A stretch of DNA of 22,067 nucleotides from a virus. The stretch lies in the IMG/VR virus record IMGVR_UViG_3300045135_000192, positions 1 through 22,067 of that record; one strand, 5' to 3'. Every line of letters starts with the position of its first letter. The stretch's first letter is position 1. This document shows, piece after piece, positions 939-18,639 of the stretch. The notes under the pieces are model-generated. The model did no database searches. It was not told where the DNA came from and was given only the letters and a program-made list of their open reading frames with translations. Made by a program: the position numbers and the translations under genes.

Positions 939-1233
939 GATCAAGGGTAATTACCATGAGAATTGGTTTGTAAAATTATTTACATCATGGAAGTATCCTG
1001 TAAAAAAAGTGCCACTATCAGGTAGTCTTGGTGGTGAACATACTGGTGACATCAAACTAGTAATCAATGGCAAAGAATATGTCGTTGAGATTAAGTATAG
1101 ATCTGTTGATGGCTTTCCTAATCCTTTCAAAGTATTAGAGAATAGAGATCTTGCTATATACAAACGTAAAACTGGTGAGCCTAAATGGATAGCGATCATA
1201 CCAGATAAAATATTTAAGGAGGTTATTAAATGA
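922..1233 (+). CDS. PD-(D/E)XK nuclease, Holliday junction resolvase-like
   Basis: A 103-aa protein with the small PD-(D/E)XK nuclease layout seen in archaeal Hjc-type resolvases and VRR-NUC-like enzymes. The candidate metal-binding and catalytic residues are E13 in the first helix, D43 in T-G-D-I, and E57/K59 in V-V-E-I-K-Y-R, preceded by the S-G-S-L-G-G loop. Such enzymes cut branched DNA, so in this phage it probably resolves recombination or replication intermediates. This fits the neighbouring exonuclease and annealing genes. The ribosome binding site is weak, and the start overlaps the preceding small gene by 17 bases. The stop overlaps the next gene as ATGA. Resolvase activity rather than another structure-specific nicking activity is inferred. 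Confidence 0.75.
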   Translation: MPSKSKIKGNYHENWFVKLFTSWKYPVKKVPLSGSLGGEHTGDIKLVINGKEYVVEIKYRSVDGFPNPFKVLENRDLAIYKRKTGEPKWIAIIPDKIFKEVIK

Positions 1234-1415
1234 TATGCGTAATATGTCATAAAGATATTGAGCCTGATCGTGATAAAGATGGCAATATATATTGGACTGA
1301 AGGTAATAATGCACAACCAGTAGGTGAGGGTAGGTGCTGTAACAAGTGCAACATTGATATTGTTTTGCCTATGAGATATGCAGAAGTTGATATCAAATTA
1401 TCGGAGAGCAAATGA
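1230..1415 (+). CDS. Small Cys-rich zinc-binding protein
   Basis: A 61-aa protein with a CxxC pair near the N-terminus (C3, C6) and a second cluster C36-C37-x-x-C40, which together can form a zinc ribbon. The W-T-E-G-N-N-A-Q-P-V segment between them is typical of small zinc proteins found widely in phage genomes. The function is unknown; DNA or protein binding is likely. A strong AAGGAGG (1216-1222) precedes the start, which is also coupled to the nuclease gene by an ATGA overlap. The stop overlaps the next start in the same way at 1412-1415. Confidence 0.8.
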   Translation: MICVICHKDIEPDRDKDGNIYWTEGNNAQPVGEGRCCNKCNIDIVLPMRYAEVDIKLSESK

Positions 1416-1684
1416 AATACTTAACTGAAGCTTGGCAACCAAGCAACGATCTATGTGAACAAATCAAGGAGGTAAATCACAATGAAGAAACTAAGTACTT
1501 TAAATACTTCAATATCCGTAACCAAGTCAGAAGAGATGACTGGGATAATGAGTATAAAAAATGGTGTGCAAGATCAAAGACTCGCAGACTTAGTACTAAC
1601 ACAGCAAAAAGAAATCACACCAAGCAAAGCAACAACACTAACAGTTTCTTTGCTAGAGTCCATGCTGAACTGCAAAATAGATGA
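1412..1684 (+). CDS. DnaT-like small replication protein, overlapping the next gene out of frame
   Basis: A 90-codon ORF starting at an ATGA overlap with the zinc-protein gene, with GGAGAG just upstream. Residues 1-57 match the pattern of the DnaT/replication-protein DNA-binding domain by eye: W8-x-P10-S near the start, F30 in K-Y-F-K-Y-F, W44 in R-R-D-D-W-D and W51 in Y-K-K-W-C. DnaT-type domains bind single-stranded DNA and help load the replicative helicase. After about residue 58 the sequence becomes basic and Asn-rich and looks like a shadow of the other reading frame. A 203-base overlap with the next gene begins at 1482, and the coding signal appears to move to that frame near 1575-1590. 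It may be a true overlapping gene or the first half of a frameshifted product. Confidence 0.6.
   Translation: MKYLTEAWQPSNDLCEQIKEVNHNEETKYFKYFNIRNQVRRDDWDNEYKKWCARSKTRRLSTNTAKRNHTKQSNNTNSFFARVHAELQNR
1466..1472 (+). promoter_or_regulatory. Strong ribosome binding site inside the DnaT-like gene
   Basis: AAGGAGG lies nine bases before the ATG at 1482, in a different reading frame from the gene that contains it. It decides the start of the overlapping gene and argues against reading 1412-2129 simply as one gene with a sequencing error. Confidence 0.6.
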
Positions 1685-2129
1685 AGAGGTAACATCTGAA
1701 TACGATTTCAAAAGATGGACACTGCCACGTGGTAACATATTCAGTGGTACTATTGAAGAACAAAAAGAGCAGCAGAAAAAAACTATTGGCTTGATGAAAA
1801 AGCTAATGGTATGTGCTGACCAATCTACTATTGAGAACTGGATTATGGAAGTCTTGGTGTGTACTACTGCACAAGCAAGACTTACTGAATCAGACTTGGC
1901 TTTGAAGTGCAGGGTGTATGCCAGTAAGATGGCACATATTCCTGCTGACATACTCAAAGCAGCTTGTGATCAGATATGTATGACAAGTACATTCTTTCCA
2001 TCACTTGCTGAGTTTATTAAATATACTAGTGTATCTTATGATAGACGAATCAAATTAGTAGATGCAGTACTAAGTAAAGTAGCTACTTACTCAGATAAAA
2101 ATGATCATAAAAAATATTTAAGTGCTTGA
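1482..2129 (+). CDS. Putative helicase loader / replisome organiser-like protein
   Basis: A 215-aa protein started from a strong SD within the preceding gene. Roughly residues 29-70 and 100-185 look like genuine globular protein, while residues 1-28 overlap the well-conserved-looking part of the other frame and resemble a by-product. The C-terminal part has L-K-C-R-V-Y-A followed by I-P-A-D-I-L-K-A-A and T-S-T-F-F-P-S-L-A-E-F, a pattern found in phage helicase loaders and replisome organisers. That role fits beside a DnaT-like protein. There is no visible ATP-binding motif, so it is not an AAA+ loader. The family assignment is by pattern only, and a replication role is inferred. A 58-base gap follows it, where I see no clear promoter. 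Confidence 0.65.
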   Translation: MKKLSTLNTSISVTKSEEMTGIMSIKNGVQDQRLADLVLTQQKEITPSKATTLTVSLLESMLNCKIDEEVTSEYDFKRWTLPRGNIFSGTIEEQKEQQKKTIGLMKKLMVCADQSTIENWIMEVLVCTTAQARLTESDLALKCRVYASKMAHIPADILKAACDQICMTSTFFPSLAEFIKYTSVSYDRRIKLVDAVLSKVATYSDKNDHKKYLSA

Positions 2130-2187: not shown

Positions 2188-3030
2188 ATGACAGTTAGCA
2201 CGATCAATCCTACCCTATCGCCACACATTGAAGACTACATTCGAGGGTCTGATATGATAAAGATTATGACTGGTGAATGGAATGAATTGTGGAGAATCAA
2301 AAAAGGTTTGCAAGGCAGACCTGATTTATCACACCAGTTCAATGTACAACTTGGACTAGCTACAGAAGATTTTAATATAAAATGGGCTGAAGATAATTAC
2401 TATCTTAAATTTAACAAACAAGCTGCACGACAAATGCAGTATGGCTTAATTAAACTTAGAGGCACACTTGATGGATTCTCAGGTACTAATGCTGATGATG
2501 AAGTTGAGTTTATTGGTATCGAGTGCAAGCATACATACTCCTACAATACTATGGATAAGATGCTTGAATATTATATGCCACAGTTACAGTTCTACATATG
2601 GATTGCTAAACTAGAGAAGATGATATTCTCTGTTATCTTTGGTAATCAATGGAAAGCAGTAGAGGTATATCCATCTGAAGAATATTTAGAACTAATGAAA
2701 GAAAATATAAGAATGTTTTGGGATCACATTGTCCATAACTCAGAGCCTGATGACAGTAATTATCACAATGATGTACTTAAACGTAATGCATCTGCATACA
2801 TTGATAGTGTGCCTATCAACAAGATGACTGCACGTGATGCATCAAAAAGCAATAGCTTTACAGAATACACACAACAGTATTTGCAACATGAAGATGCTGC
2901 AAAATCTTTTGAGGTAGCAAGGAAAGCCTTGAGAGAAGAAATCAGACCAAATGAAAGGGAGGTATATAATGATCTGATTTCAGTTAAGAGAGACAAACGT
3001 GGATCGGTACGTATAACAAAGAAAGGGTAA
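2188..3030 (+). CDS. YqaJ-type recombination exonuclease (PD-(D/E)XK)
   Basis: A 280-aa nuclease of the lambda Exo/YqaJ class, which degrades one strand from DNA ends to expose single strands for annealing. The motif series is complete: G56-L-A-T-E60, L-D95-G-F, I-E112-C-K114 and the helix Q132-L-Q-F-Y136. Length is usual for the family. The start at 2188 is chosen because GGAGG (2178-2182) stands five bases upstream; an in-frame GTG at 2176 overlaps that site. The partner ERF annealing gene follows, so the two form a resection-annealing pair like Red alpha/beta. The stop codon lies inside a hairpin (3021-3052) that separates it from the ERF gene. The C-terminal tail after residue 190 is helical and charged and may contact the annealing protein. 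Confidence 0.9.
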   Translation: MTVSTINPTLSPHIEDYIRGSDMIKIMTGEWNELWRIKKGLQGRPDLSHQFNVQLGLATEDFNIKWAEDNYYLKFNKQAARQMQYGLIKLRGTLDGFSGTNADDEVEFIGIECKHTYSYNTMDKMLEYYMPQLQFYIWIAKLEKMIFSVIFGNQWKAVEVYPSEEYLELMKENIRMFWDHIVHNSEPDDSNYHNDVLKRNASAYIDSVPINKMTARDASKSNSFTEYTQQYLQHEDAAKSFEVARKALREEIRPNEREVYNDLISVKRDKRGSVRITKKG

Positions 3031-3078: not shown

Positions 3079-3579
3079 ATGATAGATACTAAAACTACTA
3101 ACAAAAAACAAGACTCAAGTAAAGCATATAACTTGAAGACTGCTATGCATGAGTTTCAAAAACTATCCATCAGTGCAAGTAAAGATGGTAAAAACCCACA
3201 CTTTCAAAGTAACTATGCTACTTTAGAAGCTGTAATACAAGCAGTGAATCAAGGTAATCAGTTTGGTTTATACTTTACACAAGAGATTACATATGTCTTT
3301 CATGCAGAACACGCAGTACCAGTACCTGCAGTACGTACTACTGTACATCAAATCAATGATGACAATACATACGTATCTGAGTGTCCAATCATACTGCAAC
3401 CTGCCTCACTACAGAACCCACAAAAACTGGGAGCAGCGATAACGTACTTAAAGAGATACACTTTGCAGAGTGTGTACGGATTACCATCTGAAGATGACGA
3501 TGGTAACTTGGCAAGCAAGCCTTCAATCAAAACTGGAAACAGTAAATCATCACAAGGAGAACATGACGATGGATTATGA
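3079..3579 (+). CDS. erf: ERF-family single-strand annealing protein
   Basis: A 166-aa protein with the signature of the ERF recombinase family: N-P-H-F-Q-S-N-Y-A-T-L near residue 41, then Q-K-L-G-A-A-I-T-Y-L-K-R-Y followed by G-L-P-S-E-D-D-D-G-N. ERF proteins form rings on single-stranded DNA and anneal complementary strands, working with a resecting exonuclease, here the preceding gene. The start at 3079 follows GGAGG (3069-3073) by five bases; the upstream in-frame TTG at 3067 overlaps that site and is rejected. The C-terminal 20 residues are polar and probably disordered. Its last 11 bases overlap the next gene, a likely single-strand binding protein. Such a set allows circularisation of redundant ends or recombination-dependent replication. 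Confidence 0.93.
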   Translation: MIDTKTTNKKQDSSKAYNLKTAMHEFQKLSISASKDGKNPHFQSNYATLEAVIQAVNQGNQFGLYFTQEITYVFHAEHAVPVPAVRTTVHQINDDNTYVSECPIILQPASLQNPQKLGAAITYLKRYTLQSVYGLPSEDDDGNLASKPSIKTGNSKSSQGEHDDGL

Positions 3580-14600: not shown

Positions 14601-15895
14601 TCACTTATTATTTCGCCTGCACCTTTTCTTTTATTTAATAAATCTTGTGTATTTTTATTAATTGTTTTTTGTGCATCTTCTACTTCTTTAATTTTGTTTT
14701 TGATTAGTTTAGTCTGCTTAGTGCTTAAAAAATAATCTTTTTCTTGTTTTTCAATTTTCTTTAAAAAATCAATTTGCTTTTGTGTAAGCCCAAGATTAAA
14801 GCCCTTTTCCCCTTTTGATTGTGCTATAAGATCATCTTTTATTTTTAATAAATCATTTGCATATTTATCTCTTGTAACTTTTATACCTTCTAAAAATTTA
14901 ACAATATTCTTTGCTTTATCTGTTAAGTATTTGTTATCATTGACTAAATTATTTATAACTTGTTTTCTTTGTTTTAACTCTAATTTATTGTCAGCAAAGT
15001 TTGATCTAGTTTCAGCCTCTTCTTTTATACTTTTAAAAATAAGTGGATCTTTTTGCAGTGTTTCTTTTAGTGACTTTAGTTCCTCTAATGAATTTGGTAA
15101 TTGTTTTTGTTCGGCAACAAGCTCTTCTTGTCCTGCTTTTGCCAAAGGTCTTTTTGTAACATCAGCATTTTCTCTAGCTTTATTAACAGATTGTATTGTA
15201 TCAGCGAGTTCATTAAAGTCTTTAATTTCTTGCTCAATTTCTTTTATAGAGTTTCTAACTCTTAATTTGTTTACACCACTTAATGCACCACCTAATATAG
15301 CACCACCTATGGTTGCAATAGCAATATTACCTGCAACCTCTTCTGTTGTAGCAAGTGGATCAAAAGGAAACCTTGCAGCTTCAGCAACACCTGATATAAC
15401 ACCAACACCTGCTGCAGTACGATAAGCACCACCTAAAACAGTCTTACCTATTCCAACAAAAGGCAATGGTACTAAATTAATTGGATCAAATATACCTGCC
15501 ACTATCTGCTGTCCAATACTTGCATTTGCTAATATTTTTCGTCTATTAATATTTTCTCTTAATTGTTGTTTCAAAACATTCATATGTTCTTGATTAACTG
15601 CATCTTTAAGATAATCATCATACTCTTCAAAACCTTTCATATCATCAAAAGGATTGTAGTTTTGATCTCGATCTTCTTCTGTATATTGTAGATTATTAAA
15701 GAAATCAATTATAGGAGAGTAAGCATAACCTATAGATGCACGATAGGTTTGGCCAAAGTCTACATCTATAGGTGCTTCAATTTCTGGTAGCATAGGTGTA
15801 GGTCTTGCTATATCTACTGCAATATCACGAGCCTGTACAAGATCCCTGTTAGGATTGTAATTATTTACGTTTGTATCAAATAGATTATATTGCAT
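11681..15895 (-). CDS. Large internal virion / DNA ejection protein, T7 gp16-like position
   Basis: A 1404-aa protein, the largest here. Its place, third after tail tubular B and just before the T7-like fibre, matches gp16 of T7 (1318 aa), which leaves the capsid and helps build the DNA path into the cell. A hydrophobic, Gly/Ala-rich region at about 125-210 (I-V-A-G-I-F-D-P-I-N-L-V-P-L-P-F-V-G and G-G-A-I-L-G-G-A-L) could insert in membranes. A long Lys/Glu-rich coiled region covers roughly 215-500, and further helices follow. A second hydrophobic stretch lies near 1200-1280. I do not see the N-terminal lytic transglycosylase motif of T7 gp16. The assignment rests on order, size and composition. 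Confidence 0.85.
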   Translation of the reverse strand: MQYNLFDTNVNNYNPNRDLVQARDIAVDIARPTPMLPEIEAPIDVDFGQTYRASIGYAYSPIIDFFNNLQYTEEDRDQNYNPFDDMKGFEEYDDYLKDAVNQEHMNVLKQQLRENINRRKILANASIGQQIVAGIFDPINLVPLPFVGIGKTVLGGAYRTAAGVGVISGVAEAARFPFDPLATTEEVAGNIAIATIGGAILGGALSGVNKLRVRNSIKEIEQEIKDFNELADTIQSVNKARENADVTKRPLAKAGQEELVAEQKQLPNSLEELKSLKETLQKDPLIFKSIKEEAETRSNFADNKLELKQRKQVINNLVNDNKYLTDKAKNIVKFLEGIKVTRDKYANDLLKIKDDLIAQSKGEKGFNLGLTQKQIDFLKKIEKQEKDYFLSTKQTKLIKNKIKEVEDAQKTINKNTQDLLNKRKGAGEIISEERVNQLLLENKKLDKQIAVNNNLNTVLKQEQEMINKISEVNTELVTRRAEDEAILDADGVPIDKYKLQPNWYTDNFVYKALVTPMKKVFQSELPLSIKRNFSKLANDAGLTQVAHKMGDILGMSVFTRAAIRNGEYVQAHDKLRKLYAEHTGKDRVILDYDFQKKGYHEWLEDTYTRILKQESLSDLDKQVKSIVDDFMNTWEKRLRDQGLIGTTQNISQRIVQENIRLQNYVTKLKDILDKSGIDPVIIKKAQDLEKDFISFTRGEDIDLARLNKTLEELEQYKIPGIKQNRTNIYKNDRVIPEIKKIQEDLKQLKENLEVAKLSKVSPNNEEFFFPRYWDVQAIKANRSDFEKILYEWYLNNPTVLRKNKDGNLERVEALTAEELMRARDPDGVAKRVKETVDTIIKERSDPTDDAVAFYGHGKSKHFRHRTLDIPNKFVANYIVRNPVQVMKIYTQRVAGKYEFSKQFDGRSVDQVVADMEMDLFNSGASMGKINEVRKDFLHMYDRVAGRVLRNPDRMDQRFVNMLKDLAQLNYLGSAGFSTMPDLAKVLMEHDLGNVMKGLTGLIADSRVKMNAKEGRLAGEILEILQGDTHMRLVEDLQNNPLSQNKYDITMSKVRNVFYALNGLAPATNLMKKLDSTIRTHELIQFSIADAKGIAKAQDVEYLRRYNIDKQKAIEIKKLVDDGVIENTKPDGSGVYLGNTEKWLQNGATEETLDTFRGALNNGIMNTILMGTPADKPIIADGVVYIPEWIGNKFGLKSDKRFRGYSRIETGLAGLPFQFWSYSFAAANKITAAMITGQAKNRAAAFTTAVGLGYLSLSVKSEFSGRFMEYKWDNMSWEDKLARSIDASGVMAMYSDLFYTAMNTSMALGGPDISMGLLQPKFPQQQNYVDAFTSIGGAGPAIGVDIYRGLYDFAIEGKYGEGSREVIKNLPFMRLWFIKEMVNELTSVLVDLEDEGFDRQLRVRF

Positions 15896-18639
15896 TATAA
15901 ATCAGGATCAAAGTCAGGGTTTAGTGTTTCCATTAATTCATCTAAATCAAATGTAATTGGTATACCATCATTATCTTTTACTGGCTGCATACCACCTGTA
16001 TTATCTTTATAGAAAGCATTATATCTTACCCTTGTCATATCAGGGCCATAAGGCTGTGGCTGTAAAAATACTGGTGTTCCAGTTTTGAGTTCCTCTCTAC
16101 GTTTTGCTAGTAACTCTCTACCCTTTTTAGTTCTTATTTGTCTTTCAAAATCAACAGCATTTGGTGTGTAATTTAAAATAAACTTACTGGGTAATTCTGT
16201 TTCTTTTCTAGGTACTTTTGCATTACTTAATATATTTTGAATATAATGCCTTGCCTGACTTCTCATAATGTCATCAGGTATTGTTTTAATTAAAGAAAAT
16301 TTACTCCTTGTTAAAACTCGACCACCACCAAAAGCATCTATAATTGTTCCCTCACCATCTGCATATATTGCATCTTGTACCATTTTAAAGTGATTATCTA
16401 TTGTATTTTTATCTACACCTAAAGTTAAAAATATATCCATTGCAGGTTGTAATTCTTTAGCTTCTTGCAAATCAAATTTATATACAGCAAATAATAACTC
16501 AAATGAATTATCAACCTTATTATCTCCTGCAACAGAAGCAAAATTAGCTTTATATATTTCTGAATTTGTATCCATAGATTGCTGAGTCTGTATTAATTTT
16601 GTCATTAATTGACCACTATCTATGCCTGTCTGTCCTTGTCTAAGCTCTATTCCAAAAGCAGGTTGACCAATATATACCTGCATAGAAGCTGCAGCAGATA
16701 ATAAATTGTATGTTTTTTTATCTAATACATCTACTAATCTATCTACAACACCACCTGACTTTCTAATTTTTGTATATTTATTAAAGTAATTTAGTGCTGT
16801 ATTAACACCCATAGCACTAGCATTTCCATTAACTGCATTATTTACAACCCTTAAGAAAGAAGCAGGAAAGAAACCATTAGTCATAGCCTGATCTACTGCA
16901 TTTGCCTTTTGATATTCTGCTGTACCTTCTTCAGCTTCAAGGCCTCTTTGAAAAGCACCTTGACCAAAATATGCATCATCAACTCCTAAACCTACATCTA
17001 GCTCTGATGCTTTCTTTGATGTATGTTTGCCTATGCCAGTAGATGCTTCATAAAGAGTTATATCTATATTTTTTCTAGCTTCAATATTCTGTTCTTGCTT
17101 TGATTCAGCTATTGCATCTTGTGTTAATACAGAACCATAACTTTTAAGATAGAAATCTGTATCACCCTCTGCTGAGGTTATTACTTTCTTAATTTGTTCT
17201 GCTACTTTTTTTTGTGGCTCTGTTAAACCTGCATCATTATCATTTCTAATAAAGTTTGCTAAATTTTCTTTTGCTGCAGATGTGCCAAATAAACCACTAT
17301 TTCTTACTAATCTTTGACTTATTTTGTGTGTCATATTAGCTGTATTAACTAATATTTCTTTTTCAGTTAATTTGAATCCTACAGTTTCACCATCTATAGT
17401 TATGGTTTTAAATTCTTTTTGTGCAAATATATCTTTTGATAATTTATTTATTTTAGCTAAATCATTTTCACTTAGCTCTTCATTAGCAATAATATCATTT
17501 GCAATTTGTGTACCTTGATCGTTTATATTTTCACGTACATTTTGTTTATATAATAATGATTCTGATTTTTGTCCTACATCTCTTTCAAATTTATTTTCTT
17601 GTCTTTCTTCAAATCCTGCTATAGCTCTAGCATTACTTTCATCACCAGATACAATAGTTAATGATTCTGTTAATTCATCTAATGCATATTTATCTTGATT
17701 TTGTTTTTTTATTAATTCAAGAACATCTTTTTCATAATCAGATAAAAGCTCTTTGCCATTTGCATCTACAGTAGGTTCATTGTTTAGTAAATTTCTTCTT
17801 ACTGCTCTTATAAATTTACCTTCTTTGCCTGATATTAAACCACGCATTAAACCTATTGTAGTACTTGCTTTTAGCTTTCTGTATGTTGCTCCATGAACTT
17901 TTGCATCTTGATTATTTTCAGTATAGTTAGAATCATTATCTTGTAATAATTTATCTACAATAAATTTAGATACATTTAGTTCATCTTGTACATTTTTTAT
18001 TCCACCTATATCACCTTGAATATTAGAGTTTGCTCTTACACTATCAGCTATAGATGTTACATAATCATTATTACTTTGTGTTATTATAGATTGTTTATTT
18101 GTTGCAGCTATTTTAAGACTTTCTTTAAACTCTTCAGTAGACATATCATTAAAATGCTGAGAAGATATTTTAGCAATGTCTTGAGTAATTATACCTTCGT
18201 AATCACCTCCACCATACTTTTTTACACTGGTAATATACTCTCCCATACGAGTTTCAACATTTGTTTTAAACTCATTTGCTGATCTTGAATTACGTCTTAT
18301 ATTTAAAATTTCATTATTAATATCTACTCTTAATGCTTCACCATATCTCTGTCTTACTAATGGTTCTGCACTAGCACGTGCTATATCACTTAATGTAGAG
18401 TCTATATCTTTGAACTGTAGATTCCCTTCCGTATCACGAATATCTATTTTCATATTTCGTGCATAATCTTTACCAAACTTTTCTTGATCGGCAGTAGCTC
18501 TAGCAAATGCTGTTGTTGCAATGTCTTGTGCAACCCTAGCTAATACCTGTCCTGCTCTTTGCCCACCAGTATCTGTGCCAACAATGCCAACTGGTTTGTT
18601 TACAAATGATGTAGGTTTTGCTTTTAGAAACTGTACCAT
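15895..18639 (-). CDS. Internal virion protein, T7 gp15-like position
   Basis: A 914-aa, mostly helical, charged protein with no signal or transmembrane segment. It lies between the gp14-like and gp16-like genes, as T7 gp15 (747 aa) does. T7 gp15 forms a ring with gp16 that spans the periplasm during ejection. The N-terminus is short and basic (M-V-Q-F-L-K-A-K-P) and is followed by a helical region with V-A-R-A-T-A-D-Q-E-K type residues. Many Asn, Gln and Lys occur in the middle. The end is acidic and Pro/Asp-rich (N-P-D-F-D-P-D-L). No enzyme motif was found. TAATG junctions link both neighbours. Confidence 0.83.
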   Translation of the reverse strand: MVQFLKAKPTSFVNKPVGIVGTDTGGQRAGQVLARVAQDIATTAFARATADQEKFGKDYARNMKIDIRDTEGNLQFKDIDSTLSDIARASAEPLVRQRYGEALRVDINNEILNIRRNSRSANEFKTNVETRMGEYITSVKKYGGGDYEGIITQDIAKISSQHFNDMSTEEFKESLKIAATNKQSIITQSNNDYVTSIADSVRANSNIQGDIGGIKNVQDELNVSKFIVDKLLQDNDSNYTENNQDAKVHGATYRKLKASTTIGLMRGLISGKEGKFIRAVRRNLLNNEPTVDANGKELLSDYEKDVLELIKKQNQDKYALDELTESLTIVSGDESNARAIAGFEERQENKFERDVGQKSESLLYKQNVRENINDQGTQIANDIIANEELSENDLAKINKLSKDIFAQKEFKTITIDGETVGFKLTEKEILVNTANMTHKISQRLVRNSGLFGTSAAKENLANFIRNDNDAGLTEPQKKVAEQIKKVITSAEGDTDFYLKSYGSVLTQDAIAESKQEQNIEARKNIDITLYEASTGIGKHTSKKASELDVGLGVDDAYFGQGAFQRGLEAEEGTAEYQKANAVDQAMTNGFFPASFLRVVNNAVNGNASAMGVNTALNYFNKYTKIRKSGGVVDRLVDVLDKKTYNLLSAAASMQVYIGQPAFGIELRQGQTGIDSGQLMTKLIQTQQSMDTNSEIYKANFASVAGDNKVDNSFELLFAVYKFDLQEAKELQPAMDIFLTLGVDKNTIDNHFKMVQDAIYADGEGTIIDAFGGGRVLTRSKFSLIKTIPDDIMRSQARHYIQNILSNAKVPRKETELPSKFILNYTPNAVDFERQIRTKKGRELLAKRREELKTGTPVFLQPQPYGPDMTRVRYNAFYKDNTGGMQPVKDNDGIPITFDLDELMETLNPDFDPDL

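Follow-up and report, generated by a model that had tools for sequence, protein, structure and literature searches.

A conserved 203-nt dual-coding overlap between a putative DnaT-domain gene and its downstream neighbour in a viral replication region

Introduction

In bacteriophage lambda, gene O, which encodes the origin-binding initiator, is followed on the same transcript by a second replication gene, the helicase-loader gene P, whose start lies inside O; the two genes share 4 nt (39582-39585). In initiator systems of the phrog_1408/3992 type, as found in Mycobacterium phage Marvin (gp71-gp72) and in the prophages L087, L089, L090 and L103, the first protein has a C-terminal DnaT domain, and in some cases a loader or the DnaB helicase is encoded next. 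These genes lie end to end or share 4 nt. The nearest parallel to the case described here is a prophage of Nitrosomonas sp. Nm132 (L086, 4209-4949), in which the genes for a DnaT-domain initiator and a P-like loader (phrog_109, 4.5e-22) have a +1-frame overlap of ~98 nt. Long overlapping genes are known in DNA phages, as exemplified by Rz/Rz1. Rz/Rz1 likewise yields two proteins from two frames of the same strand, but concerns different genes and functions. For viral +1 overlaps on the same strand, the median length is 14 nt (IQR 8-26 nt; PMC8903798), and the length distribution of same-strand overlaps in prokaryotes has been modelled (PMC3887535).

Here, we analyse the gene pair ORF1/ORF2 on a 22 kb contig of a marine phage (22,067 nt, G+C content 35%), which is referred to in its entirety as the window. 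The pair resembles lambda O-P in the order of an initiator-type gene and a putative second replication gene that starts inside the first, presumably on one transcript. Unlike in lambda, the overlap comprises 203 nt, which also distinguishes it from the phrog_1408/3992-type systems, ORF1 represents a DnaT domain, and ORF2 lacks detectable similarity to P. An initial annotation had offered three options for this arrangement: a real long overlap with overprinting, a programmed +1 frameshift, or a one-base sequencing error. A non-exhaustive literature search returned no description of the overlap and, for pelagiphages, nothing about overlapping genes or DnaT.

Results

The two start codons are 70 nt apart (1482 - 1412), which places ORF2 in the +1 frame relative to ORF1 (Table 1). 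The sequence AAGGAGG is located 9 nt ahead of the ATG at 1482 and GGAG 5 nt ahead of the ATG at 1412; the Shine-Dalgarno (SD) sequence and the ATG of ORF2 are both inside ORF1. The two frames, their coordinates, the 203 shared bases and both SD sequences are present exactly as initially annotated. The accompanying statement that overlaps elsewhere in the window are short holds for most same-strand overlaps among its first genes (1-17 nt), but one overlap at 356-393 could comprise 38 nt.

Table 1. Features of the ORF1/ORF2 locus and its surroundings (window coordinates)
Feature	Position	Strand	Basis
Separate HTH protein, 76 aa	550..780	+	PF01381 1.8e-07; BLASTP 3e-07 to Hodr gene 031
Cys-rich gene, 61 aa, 4-nt overlap with ORF1 (ATGA)	1230..1415	+	ORF list, sequence
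ORF1 Shine-Dalgarno GGAG	1403..1406	+	sequence
ORF1, putative DnaT-domain protein, 90 aa	1412..1684	+	ORF list; ATG start, TGA stop
ORF1 landmark residues W8-x-P-S, E20-V21, F30, D43-W44-D45, W51	within 1412..1684	+	
DnaT-like domain of ORF1, residues 4-61	1421..1594 (about)	+	Pfam PF17948 alignment span
ORF2 Shine-Dalgarno AAGGAGG, in ORF1 codons Lys-Glu-Val	1466..1472	+	sequence; GAG kept at Glu codon
ORF2, 215 aa, no recognised family	1482..2129	+	ORF list; ATG start, TGA stop; +1 frame relative to ORF1
Dual-coding overlap, 203 nt	1482..1684	+	third-position divergence, NN/NS and NN/SN
RecE-like exonuclease gene, synteny marker	2188..3030	+	phrog_434 6.3e-19; Hodr match, 26% identity
Erf-family ssDNA annealing protein	3079..3579	+	PF04404 3.5e-16; phrog_2324 1e-26

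When compared directly with PF17948, ORF1 of the window scores 13.7 bits (E=0.051), which is under the gathering score of 25 bits. BLASTP links it (8e-06) to a protein of contig L145, which passes the PF17948 gathering score with 27.4 bits and, with 1.1e-13, is similar to phage replication initiation proteins. In addition, ORF1 of contig L034, which is 57% identical to that of the window, matches the DnaT domain of Pelagibacter phage EXVC031P Hodr (E=7e-5), and the ORF1 family profile matches the Hodr family with P=1.3e-06. A PDB sequence search with ORF1 yielded mainly HTH matches. Transitive homology thus supports the presence of a DnaT domain in ORF1, and on this basis the original 'DnaT-like' call is right. 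Since DnaT of E. coli is a primosomal protein, a role of ORF1 as a ssDNA-binding, DnaT-type primosomal or initiator protein is the natural inference.

As tblastn searches of phage records with ORF1 and ORF2 of the window returned no matches, relatives were taken from IMG/VR, and Hodr was reached via the neighbouring exonuclease. Searching with ORF2 identified 16 viral contigs with full-length matches of 84-91% identity, and in 16/16 cases ORF1 comprises 90 aa, ORF2 215-216 aa and the overlap 203 nt. The ORF1 search added L034 and L035, whose ORF1 is 57% identical and whose ORF2 type is 62% identical to the respective window protein, once again with lengths of 90 and 215 aa and a 203-nt overlap. 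Repetition of the viral scan with an ORF2 alignment retrieved no further loci. Altogether, 18 contigs share both frames and their lengths with the window at ORF1 identities of 57-94%. A one-base sequencing or assembly error in the window has virtually no probability left, as identical frames and lengths recur in these 18 contigs and homologous overlaps occur in an isolate genome; we reject this option of the initial annotation.

The isolate genome is that of Hodr (OQ414635.1), whereas the relatives are nearly all metagenomic contigs. The product of Hodr gene 031 combines an HTH with a DnaT domain in one protein (PF17948, 4.4e-06, 26.8 bits, above the gathering score). A +1 ORF of 203 aa begins within the DnaT domain (record position 15714), generating an overlap of 245 nt, and is followed by genes for a RecE-like exonuclease and SSB. 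Thus, Hodr genes 031/032 resemble the window in their homologous DnaT domain, a +1 ORF starting from the same place and the subsequent genes, but differ in the N-terminal HTH fusion, the length of the overlap, and in that the latter was left unannotated. In Hodr relatives, the overlap measures 236-260 nt, with identities down to 54-62%. A third type, represented by L145/L146, has a free-standing DnaT protein as in the window and a 248-nt overlap, and its ORF2 is 35% identical to that of Hodr over almost the full length. Relative to the DnaT domain, the start of the overlapping ORF has an unchanged position in Hodr, its relatives and L145/L146.

The alignment with related phages that had been proposed initially was carried out on these contigs. 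Of 74 loci counted, one was set aside as untestable, the contig ending too early. In 73/73 testable contigs or records (58 distinct sequences), the +1 frame is open through ORF1 into a complete ORF2, and a search of the same 73 for a single uninterrupted frame joining DnaT and ORF2 found none. When codons were re-drawn while keeping the ORF1 protein, the ORF2 frame stayed open in 21-29% of cases; in the reverse experiment keeping the ORF2 protein, the ORF1 frame stayed open in 0.2-1.3% only. Because codon randomization of a single sequence is weak for the ORF2 frame (0.21-0.29), it was not taken as proof; it is the conservation across all testable relatives which indicates that the overlap is not a product of chance. 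As a separate observation, in L085/L144 (contig 3300003702_000324) the HTH continues in frame directly into ORF2 following deletions, the second of which is inside ORF2; this may be a real HTH-ORF2 fusion or a misassembly.

Selection within the overlap was assessed by classing substitutions as non-synonymous (N) or synonymous (S) in ORF1 and then in ORF2. If ORF2 were untranslated, NN/NS should be near 1, and the same applies to NN/SN for an untranslated ORF1. As codon positions differ in tolerance and raw NN/NS values could therefore mislead, the null was calibrated with phantom frames placed in the single-coding parts of these genes. The phantom +1 frame in ORF1-only DNA gave an NN/NS of 1.16 (CI 0.85-1.59), and the phantom frame in ORF2-only DNA an NN/SN of 1.61 (1.21-2.27). 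CIs were obtained by bootstrapping, which takes codon columns as independent while sequence pairs share ancestry. In the Hodr-family overlap, NN/NS is 0.47 (CI 0.32-0.67) and NN/SN is 0.62 (0.40-0.90), to be compared with 0.43 and 0.45 for genuine ORF2-only and ORF1-only DNA, respectively. The window group gave 0.31 (0.11-0.82) for NN/NS and 0.19 (0.06-0.54) for NN/SN, both CIs being below 1. A wider set of 16 representatives yielded ratios of 0.71 and 0.72, again with both CIs below 1, and an independent subset of seven sequences was consistent, the CI for ORF2 reaching 1.1. Addition of L034 to the window group weakened the ORF2 test (0.63, CI 0.39-1.10), and the first half of ORF2 alone in the close group gave an NN/NS of 0.49 (CI 0-2.15). 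Concomitantly, third-position divergence in the window group drops from 0.27 in ORF1-only and 0.18 in ORF2-only DNA to 0.05 in the overlap in either frame, and in the Hodr family from about 0.35 to 0.13 (ORF1) and 0.19 (ORF2).

These data show that purifying selection acts on both frames within the overlap, which is therefore real and not a sequencing error. The high overall nucleotide conservation in 1482-1684 could also be ascribed to constraint on the nucleotide sequence itself rather than on two proteins, be it RNA structure or origin iterons as in lambda, whose origin is located inside gene O. Constraint of this kind predicts no excess of changes that are silent in one frame, but such changes exceed those affecting both proteins by a per-site factor of about 1.6 to 5. 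Moreover, no iterons, no Rfam match and no unusual folding were detected, leaving this explanation very little credit.

It is also conceivable that only one frame is translated in the overlap and that ORF2 starts late, near the ORF1 stop. Gene 032 of Hodr is annotated in this manner, from 15993, i.e. 93 codons later than 15714, and ORF2 residues 1-30 are of low confidence in structure prediction. However, frame-2 constraint covers ORF2 residues 1-33, the SD sequence and start codon are conserved, and the overlap is the only part in which third-position divergence is reduced to roughly half or less in both frames. We consequently regard a late start as improbable. In all likelihood, Hodr gene 032 begins at 15714, within gene 031, which would give it a span of 15714-16325 of the record (L018 3329-3940).

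The signals for initiation at ORF2 are likewise maintained. The Glu codon embedded in the SD sequence is GAG in 31/31 lineages examined, as compared to 44/242 (18%) of the other Glu codons in the same ORF1s and 31% in the genes of the window. In the sub-clade L082, L131, L135 and L143, the ORF2 ATG is gone through a change of the ORF1 Tyr codon from TAT to TAC. These contigs have a TTG two codons upstream, derived from a change of Ile ATA to ATT that is synonymous in ORF1, and a stronger SD sequence, GGAGAGGAGG, 6 nt ahead of it. Apparently, mutations silent in ORF1 have thus shifted the start of ORF2, with the TTG probably serving as the new start codon. In Hodr, an in-frame TAG is present between the SD sequence and the ORF2 start.

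These observations also bear on the second option of the initial annotation, a programmed +1 frameshift in which ribosomes starting at 1412 would shift near 1560-1684 to produce a single DnaT-ORF2 fusion. The +1 register is indeed found in every relative, and the constraint on ORF1 declines over a part where that on ORF2 persists: in the ORF1 tail past the DnaT domain of the Hodr family, NN/SN is 0.82 (CI 0.52-1.32), a value below the phantom frame (1.61; P=0.0035), yet not clearly below 1. However, a fusion product would require neither the constraint on ORF1, which remains coding downstream of the proposed switch, nor that on the ORF2 frame upstream of any such shift. There, upstream of the DnaT-domain end (columns 1-33), frame 2 in the Hodr overlap has an NN/NS of 0.30 (CI 0.09-0.72), and the DnaT segment alone shows both frames constrained (0.30 and 0.33). 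Nor would a frameshift account for an SD sequence and start of ORF2's own that are maintained and even re-created. Furthermore, ORF1 stop contexts vary (AGA TGA/AAG TGA in the window group, TCG TGA in L034, GAA TGA in Hodr), inspection of the ORF1 stops by eye revealed no shared slippery motif, folding is unremarkable (z -0.64), and no relative has DnaT and ORF2 in a single frame. A frameshift is thus unsupported, and we consider it unlikely to a similar degree as a late ORF2 start. The change in protein character noted initially near 1585 coincides with the C-terminal edge of the DnaT domain, but it is not a switch of frames, as ORF1 is still coding beyond this point, though less constrained.

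The identity of ORF2 was addressed by several approaches. No loader family matched ORF2 or its relatives in Pfam, PHROG or NCBIfam, hhalign of ORF2 with lambda P aligned 14 columns (P=0.087), and neither lambda P nor prophage loaders showed convincing similarity. A PDB sequence search found no relative of ORF2; AlphaFold models were too poor to use (pLDDT ~50), and a fold search gave no PDB match at E<=0.001. Regarding the initial description of ORF2 as helicase-loader-like, the position fits, as ORF2 directly follows a DnaT-type initiator gene, in parallel to the P-like loader in the Nitrosomonas prophage, whereas the sequence and profile tests provide no loader similarity. From gene order, ORF2 may have a helicase-loader-type role. 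The ORF2 proteins of window and Hodr are about 20% identical. In a one-way HMM search, ten of ten window-group ORF2s outranked 1456 decoys, nine of them clearly, with E values of 0.001-0.1 for most members and E=2 for ORF2 of the window itself; the reverse search and hhalign between the two families (P=0.056) were not significant. The suggestion of homology comes mainly from the common start site and from synteny, with the order DnaT, ORF2, RecE-like and annealing/SSB genes present in both, and weakly from sequence.

According to Pfam and PHROG profiles, the pair is surrounded by HTH, resolvase-like, RecE-like, Erf-like and SSB-like genes. The HTH protein of the window is a homologue of the N-terminal HTH of the Hodr DnaT fusion protein (L018 3046-3234), but has a gene of its own, located about 0.6 kb ahead of the DnaT gene; the initiator therefore looks split or fused between groups. 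The small protein encoded directly upstream of ORF1 contains CxxC and CCxxC motifs, possibly forming a zinc ribbon, and also adjoins the pair in L034. Across the window and its otherwise close relatives L002-L017, the gene in this place (window 1230-1411) is of at least three different types, pointing to a possible recombination boundary near the ORF1 start.

Discussion

Taken together, ORF1 and ORF2 form a genuine, deeply conserved dual-coding overlap whose length greatly exceeds what is usual in phages. Extended overlaps on one strand are an established category in DNA phages, within which this case is unusual in its length and depth of conservation. Of the options considered initially, it is overprinting that the conserved frames and the purifying selection on both of them bear out. 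We infer that the frames are expressed separately through internal initiation, that is as two proteins made by separate initiation on a single early mRNA, a reading to which we assign a probability of about 0.88. Ribosomes would begin at the ATG at 1412, in the ATGA overlap with the previous stop codon, to make the 90-aa DnaT-like protein, while initiation of other ribosomes at the internal SD/ATG (1466-1484) would yield the +1-frame product, ORF2, of 215 aa. Frame 1 of the shared 203 nt would encode the DnaT fold plus a basic/polar tail, and frame 2 the N-terminal ~68 residues of ORF2.

As for the origin of this arrangement, outgroup DnaT initiators often abut the next gene or overlap it by 4 nt. 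The simplest history would be mutual extension: from an ancestral junction near 1590, at the end of the DnaT domain where the initial annotation had placed its switch, the ORF2 start may have moved upstream into the DnaT domain and the ORF1 stop downstream into ORF2.

The overlap of 203-260 nt is held over very large divergence between two adjacent genes of the replication region. On the practical side, phage genes can end up with wrong starts when gene callers trim overlaps, as illustrated by Hodr gene 032 with 93 codons lost. The system also provides a tractable case of overprinting: Hodr can be cultured on Pelagibacter HTCC1062, the ORF2 start codon occurs in several states, and outgroups are known in which the overlap is short. 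Tentatively, and as a doubtful proposal at present, the overlap might be an old device that became fixed in these marine phages: the N-terminus of ORF2 would have been overprinted on the DnaT domain and become essential, its start relocated by ORF1-silent mutations and the pairing kept, so that a DnaT-type protein and a novel family of helicase loaders or other replication partners may be locked in fixed co-expression.
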